64,000 nt of DNA from the NCBI RefSeq assembly GCF_028623165.1, contig NZ_CP117770.1, positions 186,001 through 250,000 of the forward strand, read 5' to 3'. The translations under genes were made by a program, and so were the position numbers. The stretch comes from Nostoc sp. UHCC 0926 (GTDB lineage Bacteria; Cyanobacteriota; Cyanobacteriia; Cyanobacteriales; Nostocaceae). The notes below the pieces were generated by a model. It saw only the letters and a list, made by a program, of their open reading frames with translations. It was not told the origin of the DNA and searched no databases. Below, piece by piece: positions 6,483 to 35,603 of this stretch; position 1 is the stretch's first letter; each line of letters begins with the position of its first letter.

Positions 6483-6929
6483 TTAATCAATAGGTTCGTG
6501 TTCGCTGACATATTTTTTGATAATTTGCTCAATTTCTGACTCCATCACATCCATGTGACCATTAACATCAGCATACCAGCCGTGTTGATTAAGTGCAGCG
6601 ATCGCAGCTTTGGCAGTATCATTTACTGCTTGTTTCCTCCTAGCTTCTGGTGATGCTTGCGTTACCTGTCGTTCGGCTTCATAAAACCGCTTATTAGCTT
6701 CAATTTTTTCTAAGATTGGTTGTATTTTATCTAGAGTCCAAAGGTAACTAGGTTCTACAGCACCAATTTCTTTGCCATCGGATGTATACCGCTTTCCATT
6801 AGAGAGAGTTACTTGTCCGGTTGGAGAAATGCGTTCAATTACCTCTATTTCAGCTTTAGTACCTATACGCACACTGTCATAGTAAAAAATTCCTACTTTA
6901 TCCCCTGGTTTTAGTTCTAACGTGTTCAT
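6483..6929 (-). CDS. Hypothetical protein with N-terminal SH3-like barrel, 148 aa
   Basis: Residues 1-60 read LELKPGDKVGIFYY, TKAEIEVIERISPTGQVTL and NGKRYTSDGKEIG. This is the small beta-barrel pattern seen in phage/plasmid accessory proteins that modify or bind RNA or DNA. The rest is helical with a basic stretch (EARRKQAVNDTAKAAIAAL). No catalytic motif is visible. Confidence 0.65.
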   Translation of the reverse strand: MNTLELKPGDKVGIFYYDSVRIGTKAEIEVIERISPTGQVTLSNGKRYTSDGKEIGAVEPSYLWTLDKIQPILEKIEANKRFYEAERQVTQASPEARRKQAVNDTAKAAIAALNQHGWYADVNGHMDVMESEIEQIIKKYVSEHEPID

Positions 6930-6938
6930 GTTTTTCTA

Positions 6939-7238
6939 TTAAAAAATAAACTCAATTGATGGTGAAATATTTACCGCACGTTCACCACCACCCTTAAGAC
7001 CGAAAGCACCACGACCAGAAGGGAGGTAGTCACCAGTTTTATAAATCACATTTTTAGCCTCAGCCATTGCTGCAATTTCTTGATTTTGGTTTTTCATGAG
7101 AGTTTGTAGTCTCCGAGTATCTATACCTGGAACACGAGCTAAAAATGTTTTTGTTGATTGTGAAACTCGATTTAGTATACCCATCTCTACATAAATTTTG
7201 ATGGCAGTTTCTAGAGATGCTCTCTCTTCATTAGTCAT
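6939..7238 (-). CDS. Hypothetical protein, 99 aa
   Basis: The first 60 residues are helical (ERASLETAIKIYVEMGILNRV, IDTRRLQTLMKNQNQEIAAM). The tail is glycine-rich and possibly flexible (LPSGRGAFGLKGGGER). It is separated by 9 bp from the downstream gene. No family is recognised. Confidence 0.55.
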   Translation of the reverse strand: MTNEERASLETAIKIYVEMGILNRVSQSTKTFLARVPGIDTRRLQTLMKNQNQEIAAMAEAKNVIYKTGDYLPSGRGAFGLKGGGERAVNISPSIEFIF

Positions 7239-7287
7239 AGGATTATTACTGGAGTAAGATATTCACCTGCCTCGATACGTTGCAGCT

Positions 7288-7518
7288 TCATTGTTTTTCT
7301 ACCTGTTTGCAAACTTTAGCAATTTGTTGAAACCTAACAGATTGGGTTCCAACTATCGTGGTTGGCTTTACAATAACCCTAGTTCGTTTGACCTCAACAA
7401 CTTCTGCCCAAGTGTTAGATAAATATTTTGGAACTCCTTCATAACCATCCCATTGCAAAAGAACTATATCACCTACCTCGATATCCGAAATTTTCTCAGG
7501 TTTAAATTCTTTTGCCAT
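7288..7518 (-). CDS. Small SH3/KOW-like protein, 76 aa
   Basis: The pattern KISDIEVGDIVLLQWDGYEG, then WAEVVEVKRTRVIVKPTTI, is a compact beta-barrel of the KOW/SH3 type. Its start overlaps the 3' end of the GIY-YIG gene by 46 bp, suggesting translational coupling. Function is unknown. Confidence 0.6.
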   Translation of the reverse strand: MAKEFKPEKISDIEVGDIVLLQWDGYEGVPKYLSNTWAEVVEVKRTRVIVKPTTIVGTQSVRFQQIAKVCKQVEKQ

Positions 7519-8057
7519 TGACTTAATTTGCTTTCTAGTTCCATAAGCTTTTTGAGTTGACGATTTAGAAGCATTCCATTACTTTCTAAATTGCCATTCT
7601 TATCTTTCAATCGCCCTTGTTCTAGCCATTCAATGATTACAGGTGCAGGACGAAATGACCAAATAGGACGCTTTTTATTGTAAGCTGACTGCGCTTTTTT
7701 TATACTTTCTTGATTAGCATCATTCCATTTCTGCTGACTTGTTTTACCATCTTTTAAAATACGACGCTTATTCAAGAGAGGATTAAAATAACTAATCAAC
7801 TCTTGCTCAAGCACGTTCAATTGGCTTACATCTATAACTTGCAACCAGGAGATTCTGATATTACCTATTTCCTGAAACTGCTGGTATCGATGATGTACTA
7901 TCCATCGCTCTTGTAAGTTGATTGAGCAACCAATATAAAGAATGTCATCGCTTGCAGATAAAACAAAATAGATACCTGAGTAATCTGGTAATTGACGACA
8001 CTGTTCAAGCGGAAGAGAGGGCAAACTTAAAAGATTAATAGTTGATAAGTCAATCAT
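7473..8057 (-). CDS. GIY-YIG nuclease with extra C-terminal module, 194 aa
   Basis: Residues 1-90 carry a canonical GIY-YIG core: SGIYFV (28-32), ILYIG (39-43), an NLQERW arginine (Arg51) and the acidic LEQELISYFNP segment. From about residue 105 a tail (QQKWNDANQESIKKAQ, KRPIWSFRPAP, LLNRQLKKLMELE) matches the protein at 5002-5472. I chose the ATG at 8057 because it overlaps the XRE gene stop by 8 bp, giving coupled translation; an upstream ATG at 8078 is possible. It may be a mobile-element-type nuclease, but no target can be inferred. Confidence 0.8.
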   Translation of the reverse strand: MIDLSTINLLSLPSLPLEQCRQLPDYSGIYFVLSASDDILYIGCSINLQERWIVHHRYQQFQEIGNIRISWLQVIDVSQLNVLEQELISYFNPLLNKRRILKDGKTSQQKWNDANQESIKKAQSAYNKKRPIWSFRPAPVIIEWLEQGRLKDKNGNLESNGMLLNRQLKKLMELESKLSQWQKNLNLRKFRISR

Positions 8058-8274
8058 TAAAGTGTACCCCCAAATCACTACCTAAAGCTTTTTCAATTCC
8101 TTGCAATGTATCAAATGGCAATTCTTGAACTTTCTCGTTTTCAATTCGATTCCAGTGAGGAACGCTGATTCCAGCTTCAGCTGCTAGTTCCGCAAGAGAC
8201 TTGTTTGATGCTTGTCTATATTTTTTTATCCGCTTACCTAAATCTGTAAACTCTTTACTGAAAGTGACTCGCAT
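8050..8274 (-). CDS. XRE-family helix-turn-helix regulator, 74 aa
   Basis: The HTH core is LGKRIKKYRQASNKSLAELA, then AAEAGISVPHWNRIENEK, typical of Cro/CI-like repressors. The ATG at 8274 (MRVTFSKEF) is preferred over one at 8313. It is the first gene of the minus-strand run of small genes and overlaps the GIY-YIG gene by 8 bp. An operator-like dyad lies directly upstream at 8305-8323, so autoregulation of the whole run is likely. Confidence 0.85.
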   Translation of the reverse strand: MRVTFSKEFTDLGKRIKKYRQASNKSLAELAAEAGISVPHWNRIENEKVQELPFDTLQGIEKALGSDLGVHFND

Positions 8275-21046: not shown

Positions 21047-22930
21047 TCATGCTGCTTTAACTGTGACCTTCTTTAATACTGTCTCCAAACGGCTGGTAAA
21101 TTCCGATGTGCGATCGCATGTCAGAATCAGTTGCTCCATTGCCCGTGTCATCGCCACGTAAAGCAGCCGTGCTTCTTCTTCTGGTGTGCTGTGTCCGTAC
21201 TGGTTAGGCATATAACCAATGCCAGGAATAAGCACCACTGGGAACTCTAGCCCTTTAGATGAGTGCATGGTTATGAGTTTGATGCTTAACTCGGCTGGGT
21301 TATAGTTGCGGCTGTCACTGCTGGCGTTTACCCACTCTATTGGTATTTGGGCTTGTTGGAAGTGGTTGTAGATGCGTAGTCCCATAAAGTTGGAGCGATA
21401 GATAATTGCTATTTCGTTCCAGGGGATATCTCGCTCGTGTAATTGTTGCACTCTATCGGCTAGGTAATCTACCTCGTGTTTAAAACTGGGTAAACGGATC
21501 AGGTCTGGTTTGGGGCCTTGCCGTCCAGCACTGGCAGGTTCTAGCAATACCACTTGGTCATCATTCCCGGTGGTAGGGGTCATCACATATGCAGCAAATT
21601 CATAGGCTACCCCTAACACCTGCTCTGTGTTGCGATAGTTGAGTTTAAAAATAGTTGTGCGTCCCTGTGCCTGAATGCCTACGCTCTTAAAGCTAAATTT
21701 TTTACTGCCTTGTTCACCGTAGAGGTTTTGGGCATCGTCATAGAGGATAAGCAGGGAATTGGTTTCGGGGTTGACCATCTGGGCAATTAATTTGAGCCAC
21801 TCTGGCTTAAAATCGTGACCCTCGTCCAGCATGACAGCGCCATACGTGCCAGCAGGTATCAACTTGGCATCGACGGCGGTAATTACTCTGTTAACCAGTT
21901 CTTCTATATAAGCTTCACCTTGATACTCTCTAGAGTCGGGTCTGGGGATGTCATACTTTTTGAGTAAATCCATGCACCAGCCATGAAAATGCCGCACCTT
22001 AATGCAACTAACTTTGTTTTTATCTTGGATAGTTTGGCGGAGTTTGGCAGCAAGAGAGACGTTGAAACATAGCACCAAAATGGGTTTGTTTCCAACTTTT
22101 GCAAGGTGTTGACAACGGTAGGCTAAAATCATCGTTTTTCCTGAACCCGCTACACCATGAATTACTCGATGTCCGTCTCCTAGACTCCGTGCCAACTGTT
22201 CTTGCTGCAAGTCCATAATTTTGAGAATGTCAGGGATTTGCAGCTGCGGCGATTCTTCTTCAGTGGCCGCGGTGTCTAACTCAAGCAAAGATAACTGCTT
22301 GGCACTAATGCGTAATTCTGGGAAGATATGCCAACGGATTCTATCTATTTGGCTGCTGGTTAAGGTCTTACCAAATTGATATGCTGATAAATCCCAAATT
22401 CGCTGCTGAAATTCCCCTGCATCTGTGCTTGGGAGCATTTCATCTTTGCAGATAACTAAGTGTGACTCAAACACTGCTGGTAGTTCACTACTGTTAAAAT
22501 CCTTGCGGGTGATGTTGGTGAACACGACCCCATGACCGTAAGGGATAATCAGCTTACCTTGATAATTACCTTCTTGCTGCACCAAGGCGCAGTCTTTTTC
22601 TAGCATTTTGTTGACTGCTAGGGCATAATCTCTGGCCTGTTGTAGTGGGTGTTTAACTTCCTTTATTCCATCCTCAGTAAGCAGTGTGACTGTGGAGGGG
22701 TTGATATTTTGAATAGTGTCTAACTTCCAGTCTTTTACTTCCAGGATGAACAAGCCCCGGCTGGGGTGCAGCACTATGAAGTCTGGGTGCAATTGCTTTT
22801 TACCTACTGGCACGTCATACCACAGCAGGTAATCATCCTCTAATTTCTCCTCCAAGCGCTGCGCTAACCTCCTCTCGCCGGGGGTCATCCGCATTGAGCA
22901 GCTATTAAATGAGGGAATTAATGTGGCCAT
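21047..22930 (-). CDS. NERD-domain SF1 (UvrD-like) helicase, 627 aa
   Basis: Residues 15-130 form a NERD nuclease-related domain with an HPDFIVL..LFILEVKDW core (Asp50, Glu64, Lys66). A UvrD/Rep-type helicase follows: Walker A GVAGSGKT (259-266), Walker B VMLDEGHDF, LNYRNTEQVL (motif IV), LITMHSSKGLEFPVV (motif V) and LLYVAMTRAMEQL (motif VI). DNA unwinding with a nuclease-like head fits phage defence or repair. TCCTCTAAGAA at 21037-21046 abuts its stop codon. Three truncated copies of its 3' end lie at 16.1, 18.4 and 18.6 kb. Confidence 0.88.
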   Translation of the reverse strand: MATLIPSFNSCSMRMTPGERRLAQRLEEKLEDDYLLWYDVPVGKKQLHPDFIVLHPSRGLFILEVKDWKLDTIQNINPSTVTLLTEDGIKEVKHPLQQARDYALAVNKMLEKDCALVQQEGNYQGKLIIPYGHGVVFTNITRKDFNSSELPAVFESHLVICKDEMLPSTDAGEFQQRIWDLSAYQFGKTLTSSQIDRIRWHIFPELRISAKQLSLLELDTAATEEESPQLQIPDILKIMDLQQEQLARSLGDGHRVIHGVAGSGKTMILAYRCQHLAKVGNKPILVLCFNVSLAAKLRQTIQDKNKVSCIKVRHFHGWCMDLLKKYDIPRPDSREYQGEAYIEELVNRVITAVDAKLIPAGTYGAVMLDEGHDFKPEWLKLIAQMVNPETNSLLILYDDAQNLYGEQGSKKFSFKSVGIQAQGRTTIFKLNYRNTEQVLGVAYEFAAYVMTPTTGNDDQVVLLEPASAGRQGPKPDLIRLPSFKHEVDYLADRVQQLHERDIPWNEIAIIYRSNFMGLRIYNHFQQAQIPIEWVNASSDSRNYNPAELSIKLITMHSSKGLEFPVVLIPGIGYMPNQYGHSTPEEEARLLYVAMTRAMEQLILTCDRTSEFTSRLETVLKKVTVKAA

Positions 22931-23069: not shown

Positions 23070-24299
23070 TTAGTCCTCACTCTCCAACTGTTTAGGAGCA
23101 TTTAGAGCATTTTCCATAATGTCAACAATTGAATTCTTGGAATCGTACAGTATAACTAAGTGATCTCTTGCCCTAGTCATGGCTGTGTAAATTCCTGCTT
23201 TTTCTTGAAAATCCTTATCTAGATCATCTGGGTATTCATTAGCTTCATCTAATCCAGCAATGATAACTGCATCAAATTCAACGCCTTTTAAGGCATTCCA
23301 AGAGTCAACAATTATAAAAGGTCTATCTACCACATTCATATCTCTGTCTGTAGAACCTTTGGGGGCATGGTGTTCAATATTTAGCTTTGATAATTCTGTG
23401 CTGATTACATTCTTTAGTCTCCAATTCTGTGGATGCACTAAAACACCAATTGAAGATTCTTTATGGCTTGATAAGGCAAGTTTGACTTGCTGTGCAATTT
23501 GGACTGGCATCGCTTCATCAGAAATTTGCCATAAAGCTGGTTTAATATTTGAACTTCTGGAATTTTTCTTTTTGGGCTGAATAATGTCGCCTATTTTACC
23601 TCCAGCTTGTTCTTTTTTAGAAACTTTCATATTGACTTCTGATAAGGCTTCAAGTATAAATTCCCAAGCCAATTCTAGAATTTCCGGGGAGTTTCTATAA
23701 TTAACATCAAATATTTGAGAACGCCCCACAACATCAATTCCCAGTTTCCGCCATGTCCAATCTTGTTTTCTTCTGTGAGATTGTCCATATACTGATTGAG
23801 TATTATCGTAGACAAAAAATAAAGATTTTGTCTCATCATCTAAAATTTCTAGCAAAGCACGAAACCATTCATCATAGAAATCTTGTGCTTCATCTACTAA
23901 AATAGCTTGATATTTTAAGTTTGAATTTTTTGCAAAATCTATAATTTGCGCTCTTAATTCATCATTTTTATCAAATTTATAATCATAGTTTAAATTACGA
24001 TAAGCCCAACTGTGAAAGGTATTACAAGTTACTTGCCTGCTAATACCTTTCTCTCTTAGCTTTGATTTAAGCCATCCGCTCATAAAACGGTTATAGCTGA
24101 GGATTAAAATATTATCAAATTCATCAATTATTTTCTCAACTCTATTTCTTAAAACTAAAGATTTCCCAGAACCAGCAATACCCCGGACAAGAGCGTGTCC
24201 TTTGGTGTTCATGTTTCTGACTTTAGTTTGTTCTTTATCTAAATCTTCTCTCAGCAGTCTTTGATTAACAGTTTGTTGAAAATCAATCCATTGACCCAT
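23070..24299 (-). CDS. SF1 (UvrD-like) helicase without nuclease domain, 409 aa
   Basis: The start ATG 24299 has AAGGAGT 8-10 bp upstream and is preferred over 24410, which would overlap the viperin gene. Motifs: Walker A GIAGSGKS (40-47), LVDEAQDFYDEW (II), FDVNYRNSPEILELA (IV), DSWNALKGVEFDAVIIAGLD (V), GIYTAMTRARDHLVIL (VI). It is shorter than UvrD (about 720), with reduced 1B and 2B domains. It lies 85 bp downstream of the viperin gene on the same strand, so it may be co-expressed. Confidence 0.85.
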   Translation of the reverse strand: MGQWIDFQQTVNQRLLREDLDKEQTKVRNMNTKGHALVRGIAGSGKSLVLRNRVEKIIDEFDNILILSYNRFMSGWLKSKLREKGISRQVTCNTFHSWAYRNLNYDYKFDKNDELRAQIIDFAKNSNLKYQAILVDEAQDFYDEWFRALLEILDDETKSLFFVYDNTQSVYGQSHRRKQDWTWRKLGIDVVGRSQIFDVNYRNSPEILELAWEFILEALSEVNMKVSKKEQAGGKIGDIIQPKKKNSRSSNIKPALWQISDEAMPVQIAQQVKLALSSHKESSIGVLVHPQNWRLKNVISTELSKLNIEHHAPKGSTDRDMNVVDRPFIIVDSWNALKGVEFDAVIIAGLDEANEYPDDLDKDFQEKAGIYTAMTRARDHLVILYDSKNSIVDIMENALNAPKQLESED

Positions 24300-24384
24300 G
24301 ATTTTTACTCCTTGGCTTTTTTGGGTATCCCTAATATCAGTAATGAGGAAGTACGCTAACCTTAGTCTGGAATTGGCGGTACAA

Positions 24385-25218
24385 CTATTTCCAAGAGTAA
24401 ATACCTCCACGACCCAGAAAAGTTTCTACATTCCAACCGACTTGAGCCAGGGCAACATTTACACCCGCTTCCAAAATTGGTGAACTATACAAATAACGCC
24501 CTGTTGTAGTGTTGTTGTAAAACTGCCCTTGTGGATTGACCATTACATAGGAATCTTTCATCACGTTGTTTGTCTCTGCGACAAATCTTATTCCCTCATC
24601 TGAAAGGGTTTGATGTCGTTCGACAAATTCTTGAAACTGGTGTGGCGAGATTAGCAGATCCTCGACGCTCCCATCATTTTGACCTTCCACTGGCAGCACT
24701 TGAAAGACTTTCCACCTTTCTGGACGCACCCGCTTTACAAAGGTTGACATATCTTCTTGGAAGTTAAGGCTGGTGACTACTGTATTAAGTTTGACATGAA
24801 TACCGTATTGATGTAGTTTATCAAACAAAGAAATTGATCGTAGTACATGATCCCCATTCCCACGCCCTAACTGTTTTTGAATCATTTCTGAAGCAGAATC
24901 TACCGACAATGCGACCCAATCAATATCACTAGCGTGCTTTTCTAATAATTCAGTCATTCGCGCACCATTGGTCACAATACTTGTTACAAATCCCAAACGA
25001 CGCGACTCAGCTACAAGTTCACCAATGTAAGGGTGTAGTGTTGGTTCTCCCCCTGCAAAGTTAATTTTTTCTGTACCTGCCTCGCGCAATAAGAAAAGAA
25101 GACGTTTAGCATCACTGAAACTTAAATATCCTTGGACATCACGAAAGGTAGCAAAGCAAAATCGGCAATGATAATTGCATGGTTTCCACAAATGGAAATT
25201 TACAGATATTGGTCGCAT
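24385..25218 (-). CDS. Prokaryotic viperin (radical SAM ddh-nucleotide synthase), 277 aa
   Basis: The radical-SAM cluster motif is CNYHCRFC (Cys14, 18, 21) in the viperin-specific context SVNFHLWKPCNYHCRFCF. GGEP is at 56-59 in EKINFAGGEPTL. Further viperin blocks follow: RPERWKVFQVLPVEGQN, EFVERH, MKDSYVMVNPQGQF and the C-terminal FLGRGGIYSWK, equivalent to human FLKRGGKYIW. Viperins convert a nucleoside triphosphate (CTP, GTP or UTP in prokaryotes) to the 3'-deoxy-3',4'-didehydro chain terminator that blocks phage RNA polymerase. There is no N-terminal membrane helix, as expected in bacteria. A nucleotide kinase gene lies 33 bp upstream. Confidence 0.93.
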   Translation of the reverse strand: MRPISVNFHLWKPCNYHCRFCFATFRDVQGYLSFSDAKRLLFLLREAGTEKINFAGGEPTLHPYIGELVAESRRLGFVTSIVTNGARMTELLEKHASDIDWVALSVDSASEMIQKQLGRGNGDHVLRSISLFDKLHQYGIHVKLNTVVTSLNFQEDMSTFVKRVRPERWKVFQVLPVEGQNDGSVEDLLISPHQFQEFVERHQTLSDEGIRFVAETNNVMKDSYVMVNPQGQFYNNTTTGRYLYSSPILEAGVNVALAQVGWNVETFLGRGGIYSWK

Positions 25219-25251
25219 GATAATATTTTTTGGTAAGTTTAAAAGTTGAAG

Positions 25252-25887
25252 TTAGCTAGTTAATGCAAAATCTGTAGACTGAATGATGGGTATATTTTGA
25301 CCAATTATGTGCAGTTCATAGCACAAAGTAGAATAAGCTTGCTCAGGGTCAGAATTAGTCGTATCAATCTCTACAACTGGTATATCAACTAGGGAAAATA
25401 TACGCTTATATGATTCAATAAGATTGTATTCAATAGAAACTTTATCCCCATACCATTGCATAGGAACTTCCTGACTTCGCATGGCAATACGCTGGCAAAT
25501 TACAGGCTGAGAGTCCGTCACATAAACAATAACGTCAGGGAGCAAAAATTTTTGTTCTGATTGTAATATAGGTAAATGCAAAGACAAGTCTTGTTTCATC
25601 AACAGGCTGTGGTAAGCAAGAGTAGAAAACACATATCTGTCAGCCACAACCCCTGAATAGTTCAACTTTAATGCATACTCATGGCTACGCATAAGGTTGC
25701 ACAAAGTATAAAAATGAAATGTGGTGATTGGGGAATGAGTCGCAGCTATTTGCTCTCGTAAAGAAATTAACTCAGGTGGTATGCTGCTGTAATAAGAAAA
25801 ATTTTGGCGCTTGGCAAATAGCTCTGCCAAAGTAGTTTTCCCAGCCCCATCTAATCCTTCAAATACCAAAAAAGGAAACTGCTTCAT
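25252..25887 (-). CDS. Thymidylate kinase-like nucleotide kinase partnered with viperin, 211 aa
   Basis: P-loop kinase: LVFEGLDGAGKTTLAE (Walker A 11-18), VADRYVFSTLAY (DRY 83-85) and LLPDVIVYVTDSQPVICQRI (Walker B and LID-adjacent region). It resembles TMK/CMPK2-type nucleoside monophosphate kinases. Such kinases neighbour viperin both in bacteria and in vertebrates (CMPK2), where they raise the triphosphate pool used by viperin. It is the first gene of the pair. The base specificity cannot be read from sequence. Confidence 0.88.
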   Translation of the reverse strand: MKQFPFLVFEGLDGAGKTTLAELFAKRQNFSYYSSIPPELISLREQIAATHSPITTFHFYTLCNLMRSHEYALKLNYSGVVADRYVFSTLAYHSLLMKQDLSLHLPILQSEQKFLLPDVIVYVTDSQPVICQRIAMRSQEVPMQWYGDKVSIEYNLIESYKRIFSLVDIPVVEIDTTNSDPEQAYSTLCYELHIIGQNIPIIQSTDFALTS

Positions 25888-26057: not shown

Positions 26058-26479
26058 CTATCCTCTCAATTCATGTACACGTTGCCATTCCTGTTGTGTA
26101 ATTTTGTAATTTGTAGCGTTCGGCTGACGAATTACAATCAAGTTTTTCAACACGAGGTCTTCTTTTAAGTTTTCCCTCACCAGTGGCTTGTCTAACAATT
26201 TGCTAGTAAAGCGAATCTTGGTGCAAGGTTTAACACCAACGCGACTGGTATCAATCCAATAGCCAATATCAGGGGGGTTAGTGATAATCTTGGGGGACTC
26301 GATAATCTCTGCGATCGCATATATCCCCGCCTTATCCCCCAATTCCAAATCAGCACTCCATCACCAAGGGCCATGTCTTTGGCGTAGCGCGTTGCAAGCC
26401 AGGGCATCTGCTCAAAGTCGCGGATGCCGTCTATGATGCGGTAATACTTGGGGTTGCCTTGAAACAGCCAGTAGGTCAT
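26058..26479 (-). pseudogene. EVE-domain protein, broken by a one-base frameshift
   Basis: The first frame (from 26479) reads MTYWLFQGNPKYYRIIDGIR, ARYAKDMALGDGVLIW and then leaves the family. The second frame (to stop 26058) continues AGIYAIAEIIESPKI, GYWIDTSRV, IRFTSKLLDKP, WQRVHEL. Joining them at the TGGAATTG near 26347 with one extra base gives a normal EVE (YTH-like, modified-base-reading) protein of about 140 residues. Such domains are associated with restriction-type defence. It is either recently inactivated or an assembly error. Confidence 0.8.
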
Positions 26480-26623: not shown

Positions 26624-26923
26624 CTAAACCTGAAATAACAGCCTTAACTCTCTGAAACAAAGCCCCCAAGTTTTAAACCAGCAAGGGATATAGCCAATTA
26701 GCAAGCCTAAAGTTGCAGTAAAGGCACAACCACTTAAAATGATGCTCCGTATATCATCAAGCGGCATTGATTGACCAAATATGTAGCAGGCGATCGCAGC
26801 TACTAAAGACCATTTTCTTAAAACCCACCCTGTTTTAAGTCCAGTTATGAAAGTGCAAAACATTAGCACATAAAGTAGGGGTGTAATAAATGATGTAACA
26901 AAGACTTGTTGAATTTCCTGCAT
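26624..26923 (-). CDS. Small membrane protein, about 99 aa
   Basis: The ATG at 26923 (MQEIQQVFVTSF) has GAGG seven bases upstream. Three hydrophobic segments are visible: FITPLLYVLMFCTFITGL, WSLVAAIACYIFG and ILSGCAFTATLGLLIGYIP. It starts 32 bp after the PLD-helicase stop, so it is the last gene of that operon and a second small membrane component. No family is recognised. Confidence 0.65.
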   Translation of the reverse strand: MQEIQQVFVTSFITPLLYVLMFCTFITGLKTGWVLRKWSLVAAIACYIFGQSMPLDDIRSIILSGCAFTATLGLLIGYIPCWFKTWGLCFRELRLLFQV

Positions 26924-26954
26924 ATCTCTTGCCTCAATTTGTAGTTTGTACAAT

Positions 26955-29900
26955 TTACTTAGTAGAATCTGGCTTAAACCACTGATAGCAAATTAACTTA
27001 ATGTCTTTTTGCTGGATAATTTCTACTGGTCTTATATCTTTTTCATCTTCCAGTTCCTCATATTGGTCAGTGTCTACAAAATATTCATCTAACTCAGTTA
27101 CGAGTAAGCTGATGTTTTTATGGGTCTTAAACGACTCCCAAATTGCTTTAACATCTCGTTCATAACTCCGAGAATTAACTGTAGTTATAACTTTTAACAC
27201 CCGTTCTTTGGCTTCTTCATCTGTTGATTCCACTTGAAATAAGTCAGGCTGGGTTAGGGCATGATGAATGTTTTGTAATAGCTTGGACATTTGCGGTTTG
27301 ATACCTTTGCCCGTCTGCTGTTTTTGAAAAGATGTAAACAGATTACCTATGGCTCTTTCTAAAACAGGGAAAATGCGGTTATCAAACTGAACTGGTGCAA
27401 GGTTGTCAGGTTTGGGAAAGTCTGACTGTTGGCATTTGAGCCAATTGAAAATAGTACGTTTATCACTTATCAGGTTGTTTTCATCTAGGGAGATAGCGCC
27501 ATCAATGCGTGGGTAAAAATGCCAAAAGTGTTTATCATTGGCACGGAAGGCTAGAAAGATGCCACCATTGGGAACATCACGGTGGGGAATGGGTTTATTC
27601 CAGGTGCTATGAATACCAAAGGGAATATCATCAATTATTTCCTTGCTGGCCTCTTGCAGAAACTCTAATAAAGGTAATCTCATTTCATCTAGAGATACCA
27701 AATCTGCTGATTGCTCTAATTCTTCTAAAATGGCTTGTTTTTCAGCATCAGTGTCAGCCATTTTTAGTCTGTACAGTTCTTCTAATGACCTATCAGAAAC
27801 AGTTTCACCCAGTACACTACTGTCTAACCCTACCTCCCGGTCAATGGTGGCAATGCGTTGTTGTAGTCTTTTGACTAATCCTAGTAAATCCTCAAGTCCC
27901 TGTTCTGGGAAACAGTTGTAGATAAATAGTTCATCATAATCAGTGCCTAAGCGGTCAATTCGTCCTGCCCTTTGAATCATGCGTACTGGGTTCCAGTGCA
28001 GATCATAATTAATTAACACCCCAGCATCTTGCAAGTTTTGACCTTCTGATAAAACATCGGTACAGATGAGAATATCAATAGGATTTTCTTTTAATAGGGT
28101 TAATTCTTCATCACTTTGGGCATTAGCTTTGGGGGCAAATTGCTTAACTTTCTCTTCCCGTTGCTTGCTAGATGTTGCACCAGTCAATAACTCAATCACA
28201 GGCGCTTGAGTGTTGACTTGCATTTCGGTTAACCAAGCTTTATCTGTAATTAATTGTTTATATAAATACTCAGCCGTATCTTTGAAGTAGCTAAATACTA
28301 AAATCTTTTTACCTTGCAGTTGAGTTTTGAGTAAGTCTTTGAATGCTGCTAATTTGCGGTCATAGTCTGTGTTAGCTGCGGCTGAGGATTCAATTTTTTC
28401 TAAAGTGATAATAATATTGTTTAAAATTAATAAGTCAGCTTCAATTTGCTGTTGAAGTTGATTTAGGTCATAGTCTTTAGAGTCAACTTCACTTAGGGAC
28501 TCAATAATTGTATTGACTGAGTTACCTTCTTCTTCATCTTCAGTAGCTAATACTAACTTGCGAAAGTTTTTACTATCTAATAGCTTTTTTTGTTGAGTAA
28601 GAATTTTATAAAAATTAGTTTGAAAGTCTCTTTGGTTACGAATACTATTTTTAAAAGCAAGTAGTGAACTTTCAAATCGTTTAAAATAAAGAGCTTTTTG
28701 GAGGGCAACTAGGGCATCATTGCGCTTGACTTCATTTTCTTCCCCTTTATCCTTGCGCTTTTTAAAAGCCTTAATGTTATAAGCAGGTAAGTTAAGCTTG
28801 TCAATTTGAGTGGCTATCCCCGTATACAGTCCAGCAAAGCTATCCTCAAAGTTATATGTAAACTGTTCTAACTGGCGTTTAGGAAAGTGAATGAGTTTAC
28901 CATTAATGCGAATTTCTTCACCTGCTTGTTGCCTTCTAATCACGTCCTGGCGGCTGCGTCTCACCATTGTTTGCATGAGGAGTTCTGTAATTTCTACGCC
29001 ACCTTTAGCTAAGGCTTTAAAATAAGTCTTGAGGTTAGAAATACCCCATTCTCGGTAATAGATTTCACTGCCACGAGTTAACAACAGGATTTGATGGTAA
29101 AGGTCAAATATGCTGTTGTTGATGGGGGTAGCAGTCAGTAACACTACCCGTTTATTGCGTTTACCACTGCTAACTAGCTTTAATAAATTGCGGTAGCGAT
29201 TGGTGGCACTGTTACGAAAATTATGGGATTCATCCACCACCACAATGTCATAACGAGCATAATTATGTAAGTTAAAGTTTTGGCGGCTGATTTCTTCATG
29301 GGAGATAACATCAGCTTTAATGCCAAATTCATCTAGTTTTTTATCCCAGACTAATCTTTTGAGTTGAGCCGGACAAACCACCAAGGCACGGGGGACAAAT
29401 CTCGGTTTTCTGAGTTTAATTAGGTAATAGTCCAGCAGCCGCAAGCCAATAAAAGTTTTCCCCAAACCTACGGCATCAGCGATAACACAGCCATTGTGTC
29501 TTTCTATGAGTCTAACTGCTCTCTCAAATCCCTCTTGCTGAAAGCTGGCCAGTTCTAATGAAGTGCGATCGCCCTCGCCAATGATGGTATCGTCTTTGAA
29601 TAGTTCGTACAGGGCTTTGAGGAATACTTGGTAGGGGGTGTAAGCTTTACTGCCAAACTTGGAGGCATTGAGCGCGTCAATTAACTTAGTTTTGTAATCA
29701 ACATCGACACTTTCGTGATTCCAAAACTCTGTAAACCAATTGTGGCGTAAATCTTGGGCAATGGCTTTTTGTTTGTTGACTACGTTTAGTTCTCGGTTGT
29801 GGTAAATACCAGATGGGGTGAAGTTACTAGAGCCGACAATACTATACTCATCAAATATGTAAGCTTTGGCGTGTAAAAATTCACTGTTAGTTGCCCCATA

Positions 29901-30248
29901 CAGTCTGACCAGGATGTGGTCTTGTTGCAAGTAAGCAATCATCCGGTCAATCTGCTGTTTATAGCTTGCCTTAAAGTCTTCCTCCTCTAGCTCTTGCTGA
30001 ATGTCGCGGCGAAAGTAGCGGATTAGGTCGATGCGATCGCTTTCTGCTGGTCTAATAGTTGGGTCACGCCCAATGAGTAACCGCAAGCTGGTGAGTTGGT
30101 TCATGGGAGCTTCTAGGCGTACCCATGCCTCGATGCGGAAAAAGCCAGTGGCGATGTCGAGGATAATTTGGTGTTCATCCTCGATTAGTTGTTTGAGGAT
30201 GGTTTGCAGTTTGTGGCGGGAGTTGTCGATGTAATCGGGTAAGGGCAT
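26955..30248 (-). CDS. PLD-domain SNF2-type helicase, 1097 aa
   Basis: The N-terminus is a phospholipase-D-like domain with one HKD-type motif (FLHAKAYIFDEYSIVGSSNF, His126, Lys128). The SNF2/SF2 core follows: Walker A DAVGLGKT (258-265), VVDESHNF (II), LLTATPINN (III), ILICTDVLSEGQNLQDAGVL (V) and RMIQRAGRIDRLG (VI). A long charged insertion (about residues 480-640) splits the helicase lobes. Single-HKD PLD helicases are typical of restriction and DISARM-like systems. The gene is 5 bp downstream of the HEPN gene. Confidence 0.9.
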   Translation of the reverse strand: MPLPDYIDNSRHKLQTILKQLIEDEHQIILDIATGFFRIEAWVRLEAPMNQLTSLRLLIGRDPTIRPAESDRIDLIRYFRRDIQQELEEEDFKASYKQQIDRMIAYLQQDHILVRLYGATNSEFLHAKAYIFDEYSIVGSSNFTPSGIYHNRELNVVNKQKAIAQDLRHNWFTEFWNHESVDVDYKTKLIDALNASKFGSKAYTPYQVFLKALYELFKDDTIIGEGDRTSLELASFQQEGFERAVRLIERHNGCVIADAVGLGKTFIGLRLLDYYLIKLRKPRFVPRALVVCPAQLKRLVWDKKLDEFGIKADVISHEEISRQNFNLHNYARYDIVVVDESHNFRNSATNRYRNLLKLVSSGKRNKRVVLLTATPINNSIFDLYHQILLLTRGSEIYYREWGISNLKTYFKALAKGGVEITELLMQTMVRRSRQDVIRRQQAGEEIRINGKLIHFPKRQLEQFTYNFEDSFAGLYTGIATQIDKLNLPAYNIKAFKKRKDKGEENEVKRNDALVALQKALYFKRFESSLLAFKNSIRNQRDFQTNFYKILTQQKKLLDSKNFRKLVLATEDEEEGNSVNTIIESLSEVDSKDYDLNQLQQQIEADLLILNNIIITLEKIESSAAANTDYDRKLAAFKDLLKTQLQGKKILVFSYFKDTAEYLYKQLITDKAWLTEMQVNTQAPVIELLTGATSSKQREEKVKQFAPKANAQSDEELTLLKENPIDILICTDVLSEGQNLQDAGVLINYDLHWNPVRMIQRAGRIDRLGTDYDELFIYNCFPEQGLEDLLGLVKRLQQRIATIDREVGLDSSVLGETVSDRSLEELYRLKMADTDAEKQAILEELEQSADLVSLDEMRLPLLEFLQEASKEIIDDIPFGIHSTWNKPIPHRDVPNGGIFLAFRANDKHFWHFYPRIDGAISLDENNLISDKRTIFNWLKCQQSDFPKPDNLAPVQFDNRIFPVLERAIGNLFTSFQKQQTGKGIKPQMSKLLQNIHHALTQPDLFQVESTDEEAKERVLKVITTVNSRSYERDVKAIWESFKTHKNISLLVTELDEYFVDTDQYEELEDEKDIRPVEIIQQKDIKLICYQWFKPDSTK

Positions 30249-30253
30249 TAGTT

Positions 30254-31573
30254 TTAATCTATAGAATAACCATACTCAAACAGCTTTAACAGACACTTTA
30301 GTAAATATATATTGCTAATCTGAAATACTTCTCGCCTAATTTTTTCAGATGGAAATTCCGATTTATTTGATTTAATTTGGGGATGAACAATGCTATTTCT
30401 AGCTTCAGTAATCGCTAAAACACTATCATTCCAATTAAGTTCTTTTGCTTTTTTCTGGATTTCTATATATTTTTCTATAGGTTCTAAACCGACATCAAGA
30501 CTTTTTAGTAAAAGTCTAATTTGTCCAGATGCCTTTAGTCCGTTAAATCCATCAGAAGTGACGTATTCATTAACTTTCAAGAATGTCCAAGCTATTTTTT
30601 CTAAAGCAGCCTGTAATAAAATGATGGAAGTATTATATCCATTAAAATGCTTTAGACTTTCTATATACCACTGAATCGCATTTTGAATAACTTCTTTCCA
30701 TGTCGGGTCTTGCCACTTTTTCATAAAACCAGCAAAAGGAGCAACAATTTCTGTGGTTGAGTCAAGATAACTCCACCTATTGCCATGCTGCCATGAATCA
30801 CCTTTAATAATAGGATTACGCCATTCTTCTAATAATTGATTACCTTCACTGTCAAAACCCGATACCAAAAGAGGTGCTATCCAAATACCTCTTACGAATG
30901 ACAAATAATAACTAAAGGCTTCAATTATTTGATAGGCTTCCTCCAAGGTAAATGTAGTCTTATCTAAGCGCTCTATCTTGCAGATATGAGTAACACCATA
31001 GCCACCTTCCGATTCCAGTAATTCTTGTAGTTCATAGCAATTATCCAAGGTTGATAGAACGATATGCCAGTTATCATAATCAAATATGAATTGACCATCA
31101 AACATTAACCAACCTTCTCGTTCTATTTCTACCAGATTACCTTCTTCATCTTCCTCATCATCAAAGTGATTAGAAATATTGAACCACCAAAAGTTAGGAA
31201 GGTGAAAAACTACGGAAGCTAAATTATTTGTAGTTCCTTTAAAGAAAGGCTCTATTAAATGTCCCGTAAGTTGGTTCTTTTTATTTCCCCAATATGTACT
31301 ACTAGAGATATATACTCTTAAACGATGTTGCGGAACTAGTTCAGTTAACTTTAGTTCAAGTTTATCTTGATTTTCGGTACCAATCCTATCTTCACCAAAA
31401 TAGGTAAATTTAAAGTTTATGTTAGGTGATGGATGCCAAGATATTTTGATAAATACTTTGCCTTCAATAATTTTATCATCATTAATCAGTTCAGCAAAAC
31501 CTTGATAAAGAAAAATGTGCTGATTGGGGATTTTTTGAGTGATTATTTTGGGTTGGGGTTGCCAATGAGCCAT
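30254..31573 (-). CDS. HEPN-domain protein, 439 aa
   Basis: The C-terminal part has the HEPN RNase signature R-x4-H in EARNSIVHP (Arg392, His397) within a helical bundle that starts near HFNGYNTSIILLQAALEKIA. The N-terminal 230 residues are beta-rich and unrecognised (LASVVFHLPNFWWFN, LMFDGQFIFDYDNWHIVLS), possibly a sensing domain as in ApeA-like proteins. HEPN proteins usually cut RNA during phage defence. It sits between a 100-residue membrane protein and the PLD helicase, with 5 bp to the latter. Confidence 0.82.
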   Translation of the reverse strand: MAHWQPQPKIITQKIPNQHIFLYQGFAELINDDKIIEGKVFIKISWHPSPNINFKFTYFGEDRIGTENQDKLELKLTELVPQHRLRVYISSSTYWGNKKNQLTGHLIEPFFKGTTNNLASVVFHLPNFWWFNISNHFDDEEDEEGNLVEIEREGWLMFDGQFIFDYDNWHIVLSTLDNCYELQELLESEGGYGVTHICKIERLDKTTFTLEEAYQIIEAFSYYLSFVRGIWIAPLLVSGFDSEGNQLLEEWRNPIIKGDSWQHGNRWSYLDSTTEIVAPFAGFMKKWQDPTWKEVIQNAIQWYIESLKHFNGYNTSIILLQAALEKIAWTFLKVNEYVTSDGFNGLKASGQIRLLLKSLDVGLEPIEKYIEIQKKAKELNWNDSVLAITEARNSIVHPQIKSNKSEFPSEKIRREVFQISNIYLLKCLLKLFEYGYSID

Positions 31574-31635
31574 GATATTTATTAATTTCAGAAATTGTTT
31601 ATTACGATAAATAGTCTTGAGGTTATTGAGAATTG

Positions 31636-31929
31636 TTATATTTCACGTTTACAGAAGTACTGAATAATCCATTTAGAAAATTTGCCTATTATAAATCCTA
31701 CAGTTAACATCAAAACGTAATTCGTCATTCCTGGTAAAAGCCCAGGCAATAATTTAGAAAGCGCACTAGCAAAAAAAATGAGAAAAAATGCAACTAGAAT
31801 ACTTCTTATAAACTCTTCCAAGTAAAAGGCAGACATAAATCCTATTACTGAAAAAATAATGAGCATGACAATGTTAAACAAACTAAAAAGATTCAAAAGA
31901 GGCTGTAACGCATTTGCAACTGAATTCAT
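31636..31929 (-). CDS. Small membrane protein in the methyltransferase operon, 97 aa
   Basis: Three hydrophobic stretches are visible: IVMLIIFSVIGFMSAFY, ILVAFFLIFFASAL and YVLMLTVGFIIGKF. A strong AGGGGAGG stands 9 bases before the ATG at 31929, so that start is preferred to 31938, which would overlap the methyltransferase stop by 4 bp. Tight spacing on both sides places it firmly inside the operon. No family is recognised; a membrane effector or anchor role is only a guess. Confidence 0.75.
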   Translation of the reverse strand: MNSVANALQPLLNLFSLFNIVMLIIFSVIGFMSAFYLEEFIRSILVAFFLIFFASALSKLLPGLLPGMTNYVLMLTVGFIIGKFSKWIIQYFCKREI

Positions 31930-31934
31930 AATTG

Positions 31935-34900
31935 TCATCCTCCCCTAATAATTTTCATTTCCTCAGTCGTCAGCCCATACAGATGAGCAACCCTATCATC
32001 TATCTCTGCTTCCCAATCTTTTACTCCTTGTCCTTTCGCATCAAGACATTTTTGTACTAAGGCTTCTATAGCTAGGCGGTCTAGTTCTGAAACAGTGGGG
32101 ATGGGGATTTGCGAAACATACGGAATTTGCATTGCATAAGCACCACCTTGCAATTTTGAAATAATATTACTTAGAAAAAACCAAACTATTTTGGAATTAA
32201 GTAAACCTAATAAAACTAAATCAATACTTGGAATCAAAAAAACTTTATTATTTAAATAGGAGCATGATGTATCTAAAGTAAATGTTTGATAACTGGCTAT
32301 CTCTTGATATATTATTTTAGGTTTCTCGAATTCCTGATAATAATTAATAGCATAAGGTATTTGAAACCACTCATCACCATCTCGAACTACATTTAACCTT
32401 TGTAATAGACTGTCTTTATATTTTGAAAGGTGTTTCTTTATAGCAGGATATGAATTTATTTCAGTGCCTTTACGAGTAAAGATTAAATATAAATCTTGGT
32501 AATCGATTGCCCATCTCTTTACATCACGACCTCGTAAGAATGGTTTTAAGAGATTGGTAGATGATGGATGTTCAGCAATTAACCTATCCCGTGTTTCCCT
32601 ATTAACTACAAAAGCCTCATTTAAACCTGTCTTAATACCGCAATAAAACCTTCCATTCACATACTCACCCAACGGTGTACCCGCACCCCTCAACTTGTCC
32701 ATTAACCGGAACACAGCCGGAGACTCCAACCGCCACCCATCAGCCCTCAATTCCTTCTGAGGCATATAAAAACTCTGGTTTTTATACACCAAATTAAACT
32801 CATCAACAGACTTACCAACTTCCCAATTCAGCACACGGGCTTGATGATTGTCTGGCTTACTCTTGCTAACCAAAATAATGCTAGGGTATGCGATCGCTTC
32901 AAATACTGGTGCATCTCCAAAATCAATCAACACCTGGACTTGTGACTTTTCCCCTAAAAATTGACGTAGTTTTTCACCATAGCCTGCACGGAAGTATTTG
33001 TTAGACGTGATGTAGCTGAGACAACCCCCAGACTTGAGCAGCTTAAACCCACGCTCATAAAAGTAAACAAAGAGGTCAGATACCCCGGTGTAACATTCAT
33101 ATTCTGCTTGCAGGGCTGGTTTGAGTTCTTTAATTTGCTCCTGTCTCACATAAGGCGGATTACCAATTACAATATCAAACCCACCCTGCTGCTGAAACAC
33201 CTCATTAAAGTGCAAATGCCACTGGAAGAAGTTAAGCGATCGCATCCCCTTTTCCACATCAGTAGCAAACTTAGTCAACTCAGCCAACTTATCAGCAATC
33301 TGTTGACGTTCCTTTTCCTGAGCCTTGCTGACTTTGCCCTTCATCTGATTAATTTCGCTTTCTAATTTCCTCTGCTTCCCTTCCCCAAAGGAACGACGGT
33401 CAGCGATCGCAACTCGAAACACATTCTTTTCAGCTTCTAAAATTTTTCCTCTAAGAATCTTGCGCTCCTGGGCATGAGCCTCAAAATACTCGTGTTGCAA
33501 GTCTATTAAAGGTTGAATAGCAGATTGTACAGGGGTGACATTCAGCATTGTCTGTTGGTCTTTGGTGGGGTCAGGAATTAACTGCTCACCATGAATAGTA
33601 GAAATTAGTGAATCCCCACACATCAACTTGTAATCTAGGTTGGGCAGTGGTTCCACATCTTCTAGAGAAGGAATATCGACCACCAAAGACAACCACATCC
33701 GCAGCTTGGCAATCTCAACCGCTTCCGGCTTAATGTCCACACCATAGAGATTATTAGCAATAATGTCCCGCTTCCATTGACTGATAGTGAGACTACCCCG
33801 CTCTACAGTCATACCTTCCCGATGAGCGATCGCTTGTTTGACTGACAAAATTACTTGCATCATCCCCATCGGGAATGCACCAGAACCCACAGCCGGGTCA
33901 CAAATCCTTACAGAGTTTAGTGCTTGCTTTAACTTCTTAGCCTGTTCCTTAGTCAACAGTTGGTTAATGTCACTGTCTGGTAGTTCTGTTTCAAACTCTA
34001 TCAGCTTCCTGACCGCTTCCAAGTCCATACCGCTCTGGTCGGCTAAATAGCGACTCAGAGATTCTACACACATGAACTGGACTATTCCGCGTGGAGTGTA
34101 GAAAGTGCCGCTTTGTCCCCGTTCCTCAGATGCCAGCATATTCTCGAACACTTTACCTAGCATCTCCGGGTCAACTGCTGCATCTTCATCACCCTGAACG
34201 TTTTCTGAAACGGTGAAGTTATAGCTGTTAAAGAACTTTAAAATACCTTTATCGCCACTGGGGTCAAAAACAGAGTTAGGTAATTCGATTTGAGGGGGTG
34301 TTTCTACGCCAGCCGCATCAATTACACCTGAACCATAATCCCGGTCAAACAATCCGCCATTGAGATAAGGAATCTTACCCCAAGGGGAATCCATATTTGG
34401 GCGCTGTTTGTTGAGCATTTCAAAAAACAACGGCTCTAGCACCTGATTATAGAAATCTGTGTCTTCTAGGTCTGAGCGTAGTTTGTTGTATTGATTTTTC
34501 AGAAAATTGCGATCGCTCCCCAAAAACTCCTTTTTCTGTAAAAAGTAGAGGAACATGATTCGCCCCAAAAGGCGTTGAGAGAACTGATGCAGCCGATTGG
34601 GGTCAGTGAAGTAGGAATGGGGATTGTTAGCTTTAATAACCCGTTGCAGTTCCTCAAATATTTCTCGATAACCCCGATAGAACTCTTTAGTCAGCTTCTC
34701 TACATCAAAAGCTTCACACTGCACTTTATACAGTTCTTGTGGAGATAGATTTCGAGCAGCGATCGCATCTAGGCGGTCACGGTCGTAGTTGGTGGGATTA
34801 GCCCTGTCAATCAGTAACTTGCGGATGCTGACTTTTAAATTCAGGTCAGCATCAAAGGTTTTACGGGGATTGACCAACATCAATTGGTCATAGTTTTTTG

Positions 34901-35222
34901 TACCCAGCAGGAGAAAATTAGAGGGTCGTCTACAAAGACTTTGAGCCAGCGATCGCATTCTGTTGCTGGCGACACTGTTCGAGAGCCATTCGTTTTCTTG
35001 AAGCTGAAACAGCAAAACTTGCAGCGACTCATTACCATGCTGATGATCGGCAATCATATATGCGTTCCAAATGGCTTCTGCACTACGAGCAGGTAGTTCC
35101 AAATCATCAATAGCTAATTGTTGAGCAGAAGCGTTGTAGCCAATTTTTTGAAATAAAGATGCTACGTTCTCTGGATTATCTATGTGCCTGACATCATCTA
35201 GTTGTAGTAATCGCCCATTCAT
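31935..35222 (-). CDS. Eco57I-like N6-adenine methyltransferase (type IIG/PglX-like), 1095 aa
   Basis: The methyltransferase core is intact: GTFYTPRGIV (372-381), SAM motif I CDPAVGSGAF (441-450), NNLYGVDIKPEAVEIAKLR, and catalytic NPPY in FDIVIGNPPYVRQ near residue 690. A target-recognition region follows (YCGIKTGLNEAFVV, LLKPFLRGRDVKRW, IPYVSQIPIP). The N-terminal 300 residues (NFLLLGTKNYDQLMLVNP) are common in this family, but I see no clear PD-(D/E)XK nuclease triad. A TCCTCTAAGAA repeat at 33448-33457 lies within the coding sequence. First structural gene of the operon. Confidence 0.9.
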   Translation of the reverse strand: MNGRLLQLDDVRHIDNPENVASLFQKIGYNASAQQLAIDDLELPARSAEAIWNAYMIADHQHGNESLQVLLFQLQENEWLSNSVASNRMRSLAQSLCRRPSNFLLLGTKNYDQLMLVNPRKTFDADLNLKVSIRKLLIDRANPTNYDRDRLDAIAARNLSPQELYKVQCEAFDVEKLTKEFYRGYREIFEELQRVIKANNPHSYFTDPNRLHQFSQRLLGRIMFLYFLQKKEFLGSDRNFLKNQYNKLRSDLEDTDFYNQVLEPLFFEMLNKQRPNMDSPWGKIPYLNGGLFDRDYGSGVIDAAGVETPPQIELPNSVFDPSGDKGILKFFNSYNFTVSENVQGDEDAAVDPEMLGKVFENMLASEERGQSGTFYTPRGIVQFMCVESLSRYLADQSGMDLEAVRKLIEFETELPDSDINQLLTKEQAKKLKQALNSVRICDPAVGSGAFPMGMMQVILSVKQAIAHREGMTVERGSLTISQWKRDIIANNLYGVDIKPEAVEIAKLRMWLSLVVDIPSLEDVEPLPNLDYKLMCGDSLISTIHGEQLIPDPTKDQQTMLNVTPVQSAIQPLIDLQHEYFEAHAQERKILRGKILEAEKNVFRVAIADRRSFGEGKQRKLESEINQMKGKVSKAQEKERQQIADKLAELTKFATDVEKGMRSLNFFQWHLHFNEVFQQQGGFDIVIGNPPYVRQEQIKELKPALQAEYECYTGVSDLFVYFYERGFKLLKSGGCLSYITSNKYFRAGYGEKLRQFLGEKSQVQVLIDFGDAPVFEAIAYPSIILVSKSKPDNHQARVLNWEVGKSVDEFNLVYKNQSFYMPQKELRADGWRLESPAVFRLMDKLRGAGTPLGEYVNGRFYCGIKTGLNEAFVVNRETRDRLIAEHPSSTNLLKPFLRGRDVKRWAIDYQDLYLIFTRKGTEINSYPAIKKHLSKYKDSLLQRLNVVRDGDEWFQIPYAINYYQEFEKPKIIYQEIASYQTFTLDTSCSYLNNKVFLIPSIDLVLLGLLNSKIVWFFLSNIISKLQGGAYAMQIPYVSQIPIPTVSELDRLAIEALVQKCLDAKGQGVKDWEAEIDDRVAHLYGLTTEEMKIIRGG

Positions 35223-35354
35223 TCCTGTATTTCCCTTGCCTAAAAGTTACTTCTCCCAAACCCTTGCTGTGTATCAACCGTAATTAATCCTGAATTGGCA
35301 GCTTAAATCTGCGATGGGCAAAACCCACCGCTCACACCAAAACTGAGCAAACAA

Positions 35355-35603
35355 TTAATTCGGCAAATACTTAGCCAACAAATCCTGACCCTCGCCGCCC
35401 ATCTTCTCCAACATCCCCTCAATCCGCCCCATCGCCAGCGGCGACGGCGTTGAGCGTCCATTTTCCCAACGGTTAATCGTTGTATATGTAACGCCTAGAG
35501 TGGCTGCAAACTGTTCTTGCGTAAGCCCGAAGGCAAGCCGCAAATCACGAATGATTCGCCCCACCTCTGGCTGTTTGATGGCCAAGGGTTTTTTGATAGT
35601 CAT
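35355..35603 (-). CDS. XRE-family regulator, 82 aa
   Basis: A typical HTH: IIRDLRLAFGLTQEQFAATL, GVTYTTINRWENGRSTP. This short form with GxTYTTINRWENG is common in cyanobacteria next to restriction-modification genes. It lies 132 bp upstream of the methyltransferase on the same strand, so it may act as the controller of the operon. Confidence 0.85.
   Translation of the reverse strand: MTIKKPLAIKQPEVGRIIRDLRLAFGLTQEQFAATLGVTYTTINRWENGRSTPSPLAMGRIEGMLEKMGGEGQDLLAKYLPN

Follow-up and report, generated by a model that had tools for sequence, protein, structure and literature searches.

What does a predicted RNase gene do between a DNA methyltransferase (MTase) gene and a helicase gene in Nostoc sp. 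UHCC 0926: is it a fixed part of one defence system, or does it fill a place whose content changes? The genes concerned lie on the minus strand of a 64,000-nucleotide stretch of contig NZ_CP117770.1 (positions 186,001 to 250,000; this whole stretch is called the window, and coordinates are given in its numbering). They form an operon of an XRE regulator, an Eco57I-like N6-MTase, a small hydrophobic protein, an ApeA-like HEPN protein, a PLD-SNF2 helicase and a weak hydrophobic open reading frame (ORF). This gene set had been named in an earlier reading of the same DNA from its letters alone (the sequence-only reading), and all of its members were found in place. Our preferred answer, to which we give a probability of about 0.6, is that the operon combines a restriction-like core of two proteins with a built-in position for an exchangeable second-line effector, here a putative HEPN RNase. 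How these parts would work together is our proposal.

Related loci were collected with the helicase as query against 192 genomes from the family (E≤1e-60), 386 from the phylum and 388 from the order (E≤1e-130; the sets overlap), and against plasmids. A genome contig search returned 16 loci, of which three were new, 11 were repeats and two weak ones (L136 and L137) were dropped. After removal of repeats there were 47 oriented loci. L049 (42% identity) was left out, and L097 and L101, the two ends of one plasmid, were counted once. The counted set is therefore 45 loci including the window, and the other helicases are 51–94% identical to the window's. More distant mapped loci, with helicases of about 37% identity and less (L102–L121 and L050–L053), stand outside the counts. 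The loci were classed by hidden Markov model (HMM) searches and homology matches. An MTase without a sigma fusion was found in 21 of the 45 loci and an MTase together with a sigma fusion in one (L023), giving 22 MTase-type loci. Among the 21, the MTase is truncated in L085, interrupted in L044 and L139, and in pieces in L149. In L099, the contig edge leaves only the end of the MTase. Eleven loci have a sigma fusion but lack a complete MTase (the fusion is broken in L146 and L157), and in five the sigma fusion is a giant of about 2400 aa. The remaining seven were not classed: L090, L123, L151 and L153 stop at contig edges, L098 and L100 have helicase fragments (in L100 preceded by a sigma fragment), and L094 has a helicase without a partner in the fetched stretch.

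In the window, the slot, which runs from the MTase stop to the helicase start (30249..31934, minus strand like all features of the operon), was delimited by the locus survey and by junction comparison. It holds the small hydrophobic protein and the HEPN protein. Genes in this position, here called cargo, were found in 20 of the 22 MTase loci; this count includes L085, where a deletion fused what remains of a cargo gene to the truncated MTase region. L084, whose helicase and MTase are 94% and 86% identical to those of the window, holds another gene in the slot (PDC-S39, DUF7380-DUF4209, with RNLMAH). A close relative of this kind is what the sequence-only reading had itself named as counting against its proposal. 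The cargo of L044 and L045 is a transmembrane (TM)/coiled protein with a 420-aa protein bearing RNLFVH, a likeness of motif only. L087 has a KilA-N protein with a BstA-like C-terminal half and small TM proteins; L046, a CBASS cyclase (SMODS) with a SLATT_4 2TM effector; and L140, an OLD-type ATPase matching AriA, Old, GajA and ATPase-Toprim. A RES domain was found in L158, DUF559 in L149, HEPN with the sigma fusion in L023, and small toxin-antitoxin-like ORFs, named by eye, in L138. The rest are related multi-TM proteins (L086 and L126), DnaJ with a TM segment (L124), an LRR protein (L139), small TM or zinc-ribbon-like proteins judged by eye and hydropathy (L047 and L089), and two unlike 257-aa proteins with no family match (L097 and L099). 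More distant loci contain GmrSD_N/HEC-05 (L049) and AbiEii (L053). By these matches, several cargos belong to known defence or toxin families.

Two other observations concern the region between the core genes. In L152, a tandemly repeated unit of 170 bases with 66-aa frames occurs about eight times over positions 6751–8077. In a second helicase clade with an MTase (L102–L117, about 37% identity), the content between both genes is steadier: a 79-aa ORF, judged by length only, lies there in 11 of the 16 loci. A 189-aa protein of L102 is Uma2.

When ten close loci were compared side by side, their likeness reached the 3′ end of the MTase gene and restarted at the helicase ATG. All of their cargo frames lie on the operon strand, 0–96 bp from the core genes. 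L045 and L087 (MTases 95%, helicases 97% identical) have the first TM gene in common and differ in the rest of the cargo, and L124 and L126 (88% and 96%) have unlike cargo. In L023 and L046, a second copy of the MTase tail lies between the locus's own MTase and the cargo. This copy has 74–87% DNA identity to the tails or tail remnants of other loci, while the own tails of these two loci are unlike the others (medians 42% and 32%): a new MTase arrived there upstream of an old tail. In L143, L144, L145 and L146, the sigma gene is preceded by an MTase tail or by internal-deletion remnants, the MTase having been lost there; in L145, broken pieces of XRE and MTase adjoin each other. Such 3′ ends of the MTase, duplicated or deleted and lying next to cargo, are scars of replacement. 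As judged from these alignments, the constant feature is the slot itself and not its content: MTase and helicase keep their catalytic motifs, and the genes between MTase stop and helicase start have been replaced.

The core enzymes agree with this picture of conservation. The MTase (1095 aa, Eco57I/type IIG-like; 31935..35222) matched Eco57I and TaqI_C, and its solved relatives are BseCI and other adenine MTases. In the type IIG test, an N6-MTase of TaqI/Eco57I-type architecture was found present. PADLOC, whose models had no cut-offs here, labelled it a type IIG REase-MTase and labelled the helicase a candidate HKD+Snf2. NPPY was found in all 17 MTases tested and motif I in 16. Median identities over 120 pairs of 16 MTases were 36% for the target-recognition part (residues 900–1040; 32103..32525), which is hypervariable, versus 71% for residues 431–800. 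The tail (residues 1051–1090; 31953..32072) is conserved, with a median of 72%, and is the stretch that persists as a scar in relatives. The N-terminal domain (residues ~1–185; 34668..35222) was defined by alignments, an HMM and an AlphaFold 2 (AF2) model with pLDDT 90.6. Type IIG enzymes also have an active PD-(D/E)XK nuclease in the same chain. In the window's domain, E-x-K is missing at LFQLQ and no structural match was clear, so we do not call the domain a nuclease.

The helicase (1097 aa; 26955..30248) contains PLDc_2 (residues 96–176), SNF2 (316–438) and Helicase_C (632–768) by Pfam, so that the HKD (PLD) nuclease is N-terminal to SNF2; its PLD motif is HAKAYIFD...GSSN (29811..29873). 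Of 43 helicases tested, 42 have GLGKT, 42 have QRxGRxDR and 40 have DE[SA]H. The PLD HxK is present in 42, the exception being L156, which has no PLD domain. The strict HxKx4D is kept in 32, with D replaced by N in nine and by P in one. Upstream of the MTase is the XRE regulator (82 aa; 35355..35603; HTH_3, Pfam, E=5.1e-14), and 13 of the 22 MTase loci have a homologue 23–231 bp upstream of the MTase match. Pfam, NCBIfam and PADLOC bore out what the sequence-only reading had said of the regulator, of the Eco57I-like MTase with its TaqI-type C-terminal specificity part, and of the helicase.

The HEPN protein (30254..31573) was described by alignment, AF2 model, Pfam and VIA as a beta-rich N-terminal half and a C-terminal HEPN part. 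Its motif RNSIVH (residues 392–397; 30383..30400) contains R392, N393 and H397, which are invariant in all 16 aligned rows including the window. Together with the AF2/VIA fold matches, this upholds the HEPN identity with R-x4-H proposed earlier. The mean pLDDT of the AF2 model was 78.7, and the two best VIA matches of the C-terminal half were HEPN structures. The protein resembles ApeA/HEPN_Apea in its C-terminal HEPN with RNxxxH and its beta-rich N-terminal half of about 290 aa, and this arrangement fits the ApeA type described in the part available to us of PMC3710099. Unlike ApeA, the window protein by itself matched no Pfam family, HEPN_Apea included; that family was matched weakly by four of the 16 aligned family members (best E=0.0057). 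The first small protein (100 or 97 aa; 31636..31938) is strongly hydrophobic, with two segments above the hydropathy threshold, as expected of the membrane protein it had been taken for. The second (109 aa, TTG start; 26624..26953) is known from the ORF listing, and its membership in the operon is doubtful. The earlier idea of a composite of restriction-type and RNase-type parts stands in so far as the MTase/PLD-SNF2 pair carries a HEPN gene here, but the HEPN and membrane genes are not constant. The window HEPN recurs in two of the 22 MTase-type loci (the L023 copy is 52% identical), and the first membrane gene was found in one of 22 and the second in one of 45, with no homologue in the other loci. 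A distant HEPN relative lies on an E. coli plasmid (L026, 8527–17469) beside hsdM, hsdS and two DUF262 genes.

In the mechanism that we propose, the MTase would mark host DNA at a target site set by its variable C-terminal part, and the SNF2 motor with the PLD nuclease would attack unmarked incoming DNA. The cargo would stay silent while the core works and would be released once a phage blocks or overwhelms it, as PrrC is by its restriction-modification (R-M) partner. In the window, the predicted HEPN RNase and the small membrane protein would then cut RNA and halt the infected cell. Swapping of cargo would renew the back-up weapon and leave the core undisturbed. The second-line role is suggested by analogy with PrrC and with the back-up effectors of BREX and BREX-related (BR) systems. 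Back-up effectors in restriction operons are already an established theme (PMC3710099, PMC12839542; the papers cited here and below were available in part). The HEPN RNase PrrC within the type I R-M operon PrrI has, with other R-M-linked HEPN proteins, been proposed as a second line (Anantharaman 2013, PMC3710099), and HEPN, OLD-TOPRIM and GmrSD back-up nucleases are embedded in BR core loci (PMC12839542). Like PrrC, the window HEPN gene lies inside a restriction-type operon. PrrC carries a fused ABC ATPase and is accompanied by hsdMSR, whereas the window has an ApeA-like HEPN in the exchangeable slot between an MTase and a PLD-SNF2 helicase. The slot also resembles the P2/P4 phage hotspots in having exchangeable antiviral genes at a fixed position (PMC9122126), but the frame is a phage or satellite there and the interior of a restriction operon here. 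A limited search of the literature, in the parts available, found no account of a single slot with replaced content and scars, nor of the sigma-70 substitution. If the slot is functional, this cyanobacterial operon family would be a natural collection of second-line effectors on one core, and new abortive-infection genes could be read from it; several genes there have no known family.

Several points weigh against a coupled core and effector. Restriction, RNase activity and the coupling of cargo to core are all inferred from sequence. The HEPN fold match is moderate, since Foldseek with the protein model returned nothing at E≤0.001. No XRE match was detected in nine of the 22 MTase loci. The slot of L155 has no ORF of 45 aa, and that of L152 holds only tandem repeats. 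The multi-TM, DnaJ-TM, LRR, L097 and L099 cargos have no known toxic function. HEPN homologues also occur independently of the core: the core MTase or helicase was found in none of the 17 genome stretches fetched around them (L027–L043), and both accompany a homologue in one of five plasmid records.

The main rival is an uncoupled insertion site. In that case the slot would be a tolerated place in a defence operon into which defence genes and junk recombine, sharing the promoter and having no functional link to the core. It would account for the HEPN relatives that do without the core in all 17 stretches, some of them beside housekeeping-like genes (by eye, in five loci), and for cargo that includes toxin-antitoxin-like pairs and proteins of no known function. 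It would also suit the source of the relatives, many of which come from the plasmid collection, which is biased to mobile DNA, several having integrases or transposases nearby. However, the neighbouring gap between XRE and MTase has no room for a gene in any of the 13 loci having both, the cargo frames of the ten close loci keep to the operon strand and close to the core genes, and abortive or toxic types recur among the cargos that can be recognised. We regard this explanation as possible but rather unlikely.

The operon might instead be a BREX-related, DISARM or ARMADA member stripped of its ATPase or YprA-like part. The DrmD, BrxH and DpdE models do match the helicase, and the PglX and DrmMI models match the MTase. 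The NCBIfam scores are far under the curated cut-offs: DrmD gave 154.7 bits on the helicase (cut-off 610) and BREX-1 PglX gave 102.8 bits on the MTase (cut-off 500). No named system was matched above a curated cut-off, in agreement with the sequence-only reading, which had matched the set to no named system. The nearest system is Type-2 BR, which has an N6-MTase, an HKD nuclease N-terminal to the SNF2 helicase (Rakesh and Krishnan 2026, PMC12839542) and embedded back-up effectors, as here. That system, as described in the available part of the source, requires a DUF499 ATPase, and the window locus has none: the three DUF499 matches of the genome are on contigs C3 and C4, and none is on the window's contig, C5. 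PglZ (PF08665) has no match in the whole genome. No DUF3780 turned up in the Pfam scan of ten window proteins, no dedicated search having been made. DISARM class 1 (DrmD, DrmMI) and ARMADA (PMC12458937) likewise have an SNF2-type helicase adjoining an N6-MTase. They differ in that the window helicase bears its own PLD domain and in that MZB/DUF1998 (PF09369), with four genome matches on C3, C6 and C7, has none on C5. A stripped member of these systems is thus improbable in our view. A fixed composite with the HEPN and two membrane proteins as integral parts, although Planktothrix L023 does share the gene order MTase, HEPN, PLD-SNF2, is largely refuted by the locus survey and highly improbable, given the rarity of these genes and the fact that the small ORF of L023 is a leftover MTase tail and not a membrane protein.

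The core with its exchangeable position has a further variable part, the MTase itself. In 17 of the 45 loci, the N-terminal domain of the MTase (~185 aa shared, by alignments and HMM) is fused to sigma-70 directly before the helicase, two of the copies being broken. Pfam detected all four sigma-70 regions (1.2, 2, 3 and 4) in eight of the nine fusions scanned, and the broken L157 shows 1.2 and 2. By eye, the core-binding and promoter-contacting helices look preserved in 12 aligned fusions. The nearest solved structure to the L142 fusion is SigA (E=1.4e-74), and one fusion is annotated in a Planktothrix agardhii record as a 519-aa sigma-70 family factor. The L156 fusion, whose helicase is the one without the PLD part, extends into pentapeptide repeats. 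In the giants (L048, L091, L095, L096 and L141; 62–95% identical to L048), the N-terminal domain and sigma-70 are followed by about 1900 aa; this extension of L048 matched no known family, save a weak AAA_22. The PADLOC MzaA model of mza matched the sigma-70 part of the L142 fusion (E=7.1e-49), which is a precedent for a sigma-like region in a defence protein. We know of no MTase-type N-terminal domain or PLD-SNF2 partner in mza.

A quick helicase tree of 43 rows, 37 of them labelled (with L049 and L023 counted as MTase, and with SH-aLRT support only), showed six changes between MTase and sigma partners, five of which are forced by well-supported branches. L049, L158, L157, L156, L155 and L154 were flagged as long branches. 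The helicases of L147 (sigma) and L149 (MTase) are 93.9% identical. The N-terminal domain, which recurs on sigma-70 fusions before the same helicase, is most likely a docking piece for the helicase. Tentatively, and with the odds against it, the domain may be a universal plug: an MTase on it would give methylation-guided restriction, and sigma-70 a methylation-independent immunity aimed by, or sensing, RNA polymerase and promoters, with lineages switching modes and leaving MTase scars. The sigma factor could, for example, be a bait for phage takeover of host sigma or RNA polymerase, sometimes with the ~1900 further residues and a possible NTPase. The greatest novelty in this family lies in the sigma form, which raises the question of how a nuclease-motor usually accompanied by a methylase lives without one in the locus, and whether the sigma factor aims or arms it. 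A Nodularia plasmid (L172, 9740–13002) carries an HTH regulator, an MTase-type N-terminal domain (303-aa ORF) and a sigma-70 gene among transposases, with no annotated helicase.

Downstream of the operon and on the same strand, pVip (E=2.1e-97) and the nucleotide kinase VakA were found at 24385–25887, followed by a UvrD-type helicase (23070–24410) and a NERD-UvrD-like protein (21047–22930, by eye). These genes beside the operon form a defence island. Between them and the operon, two overlapping minus-strand frames at 26058–26479 look by eye like one EVE-domain protein with a frameshift; in Nostoc sp. C052, too, the helicase has an EVE-domain gene downstream.

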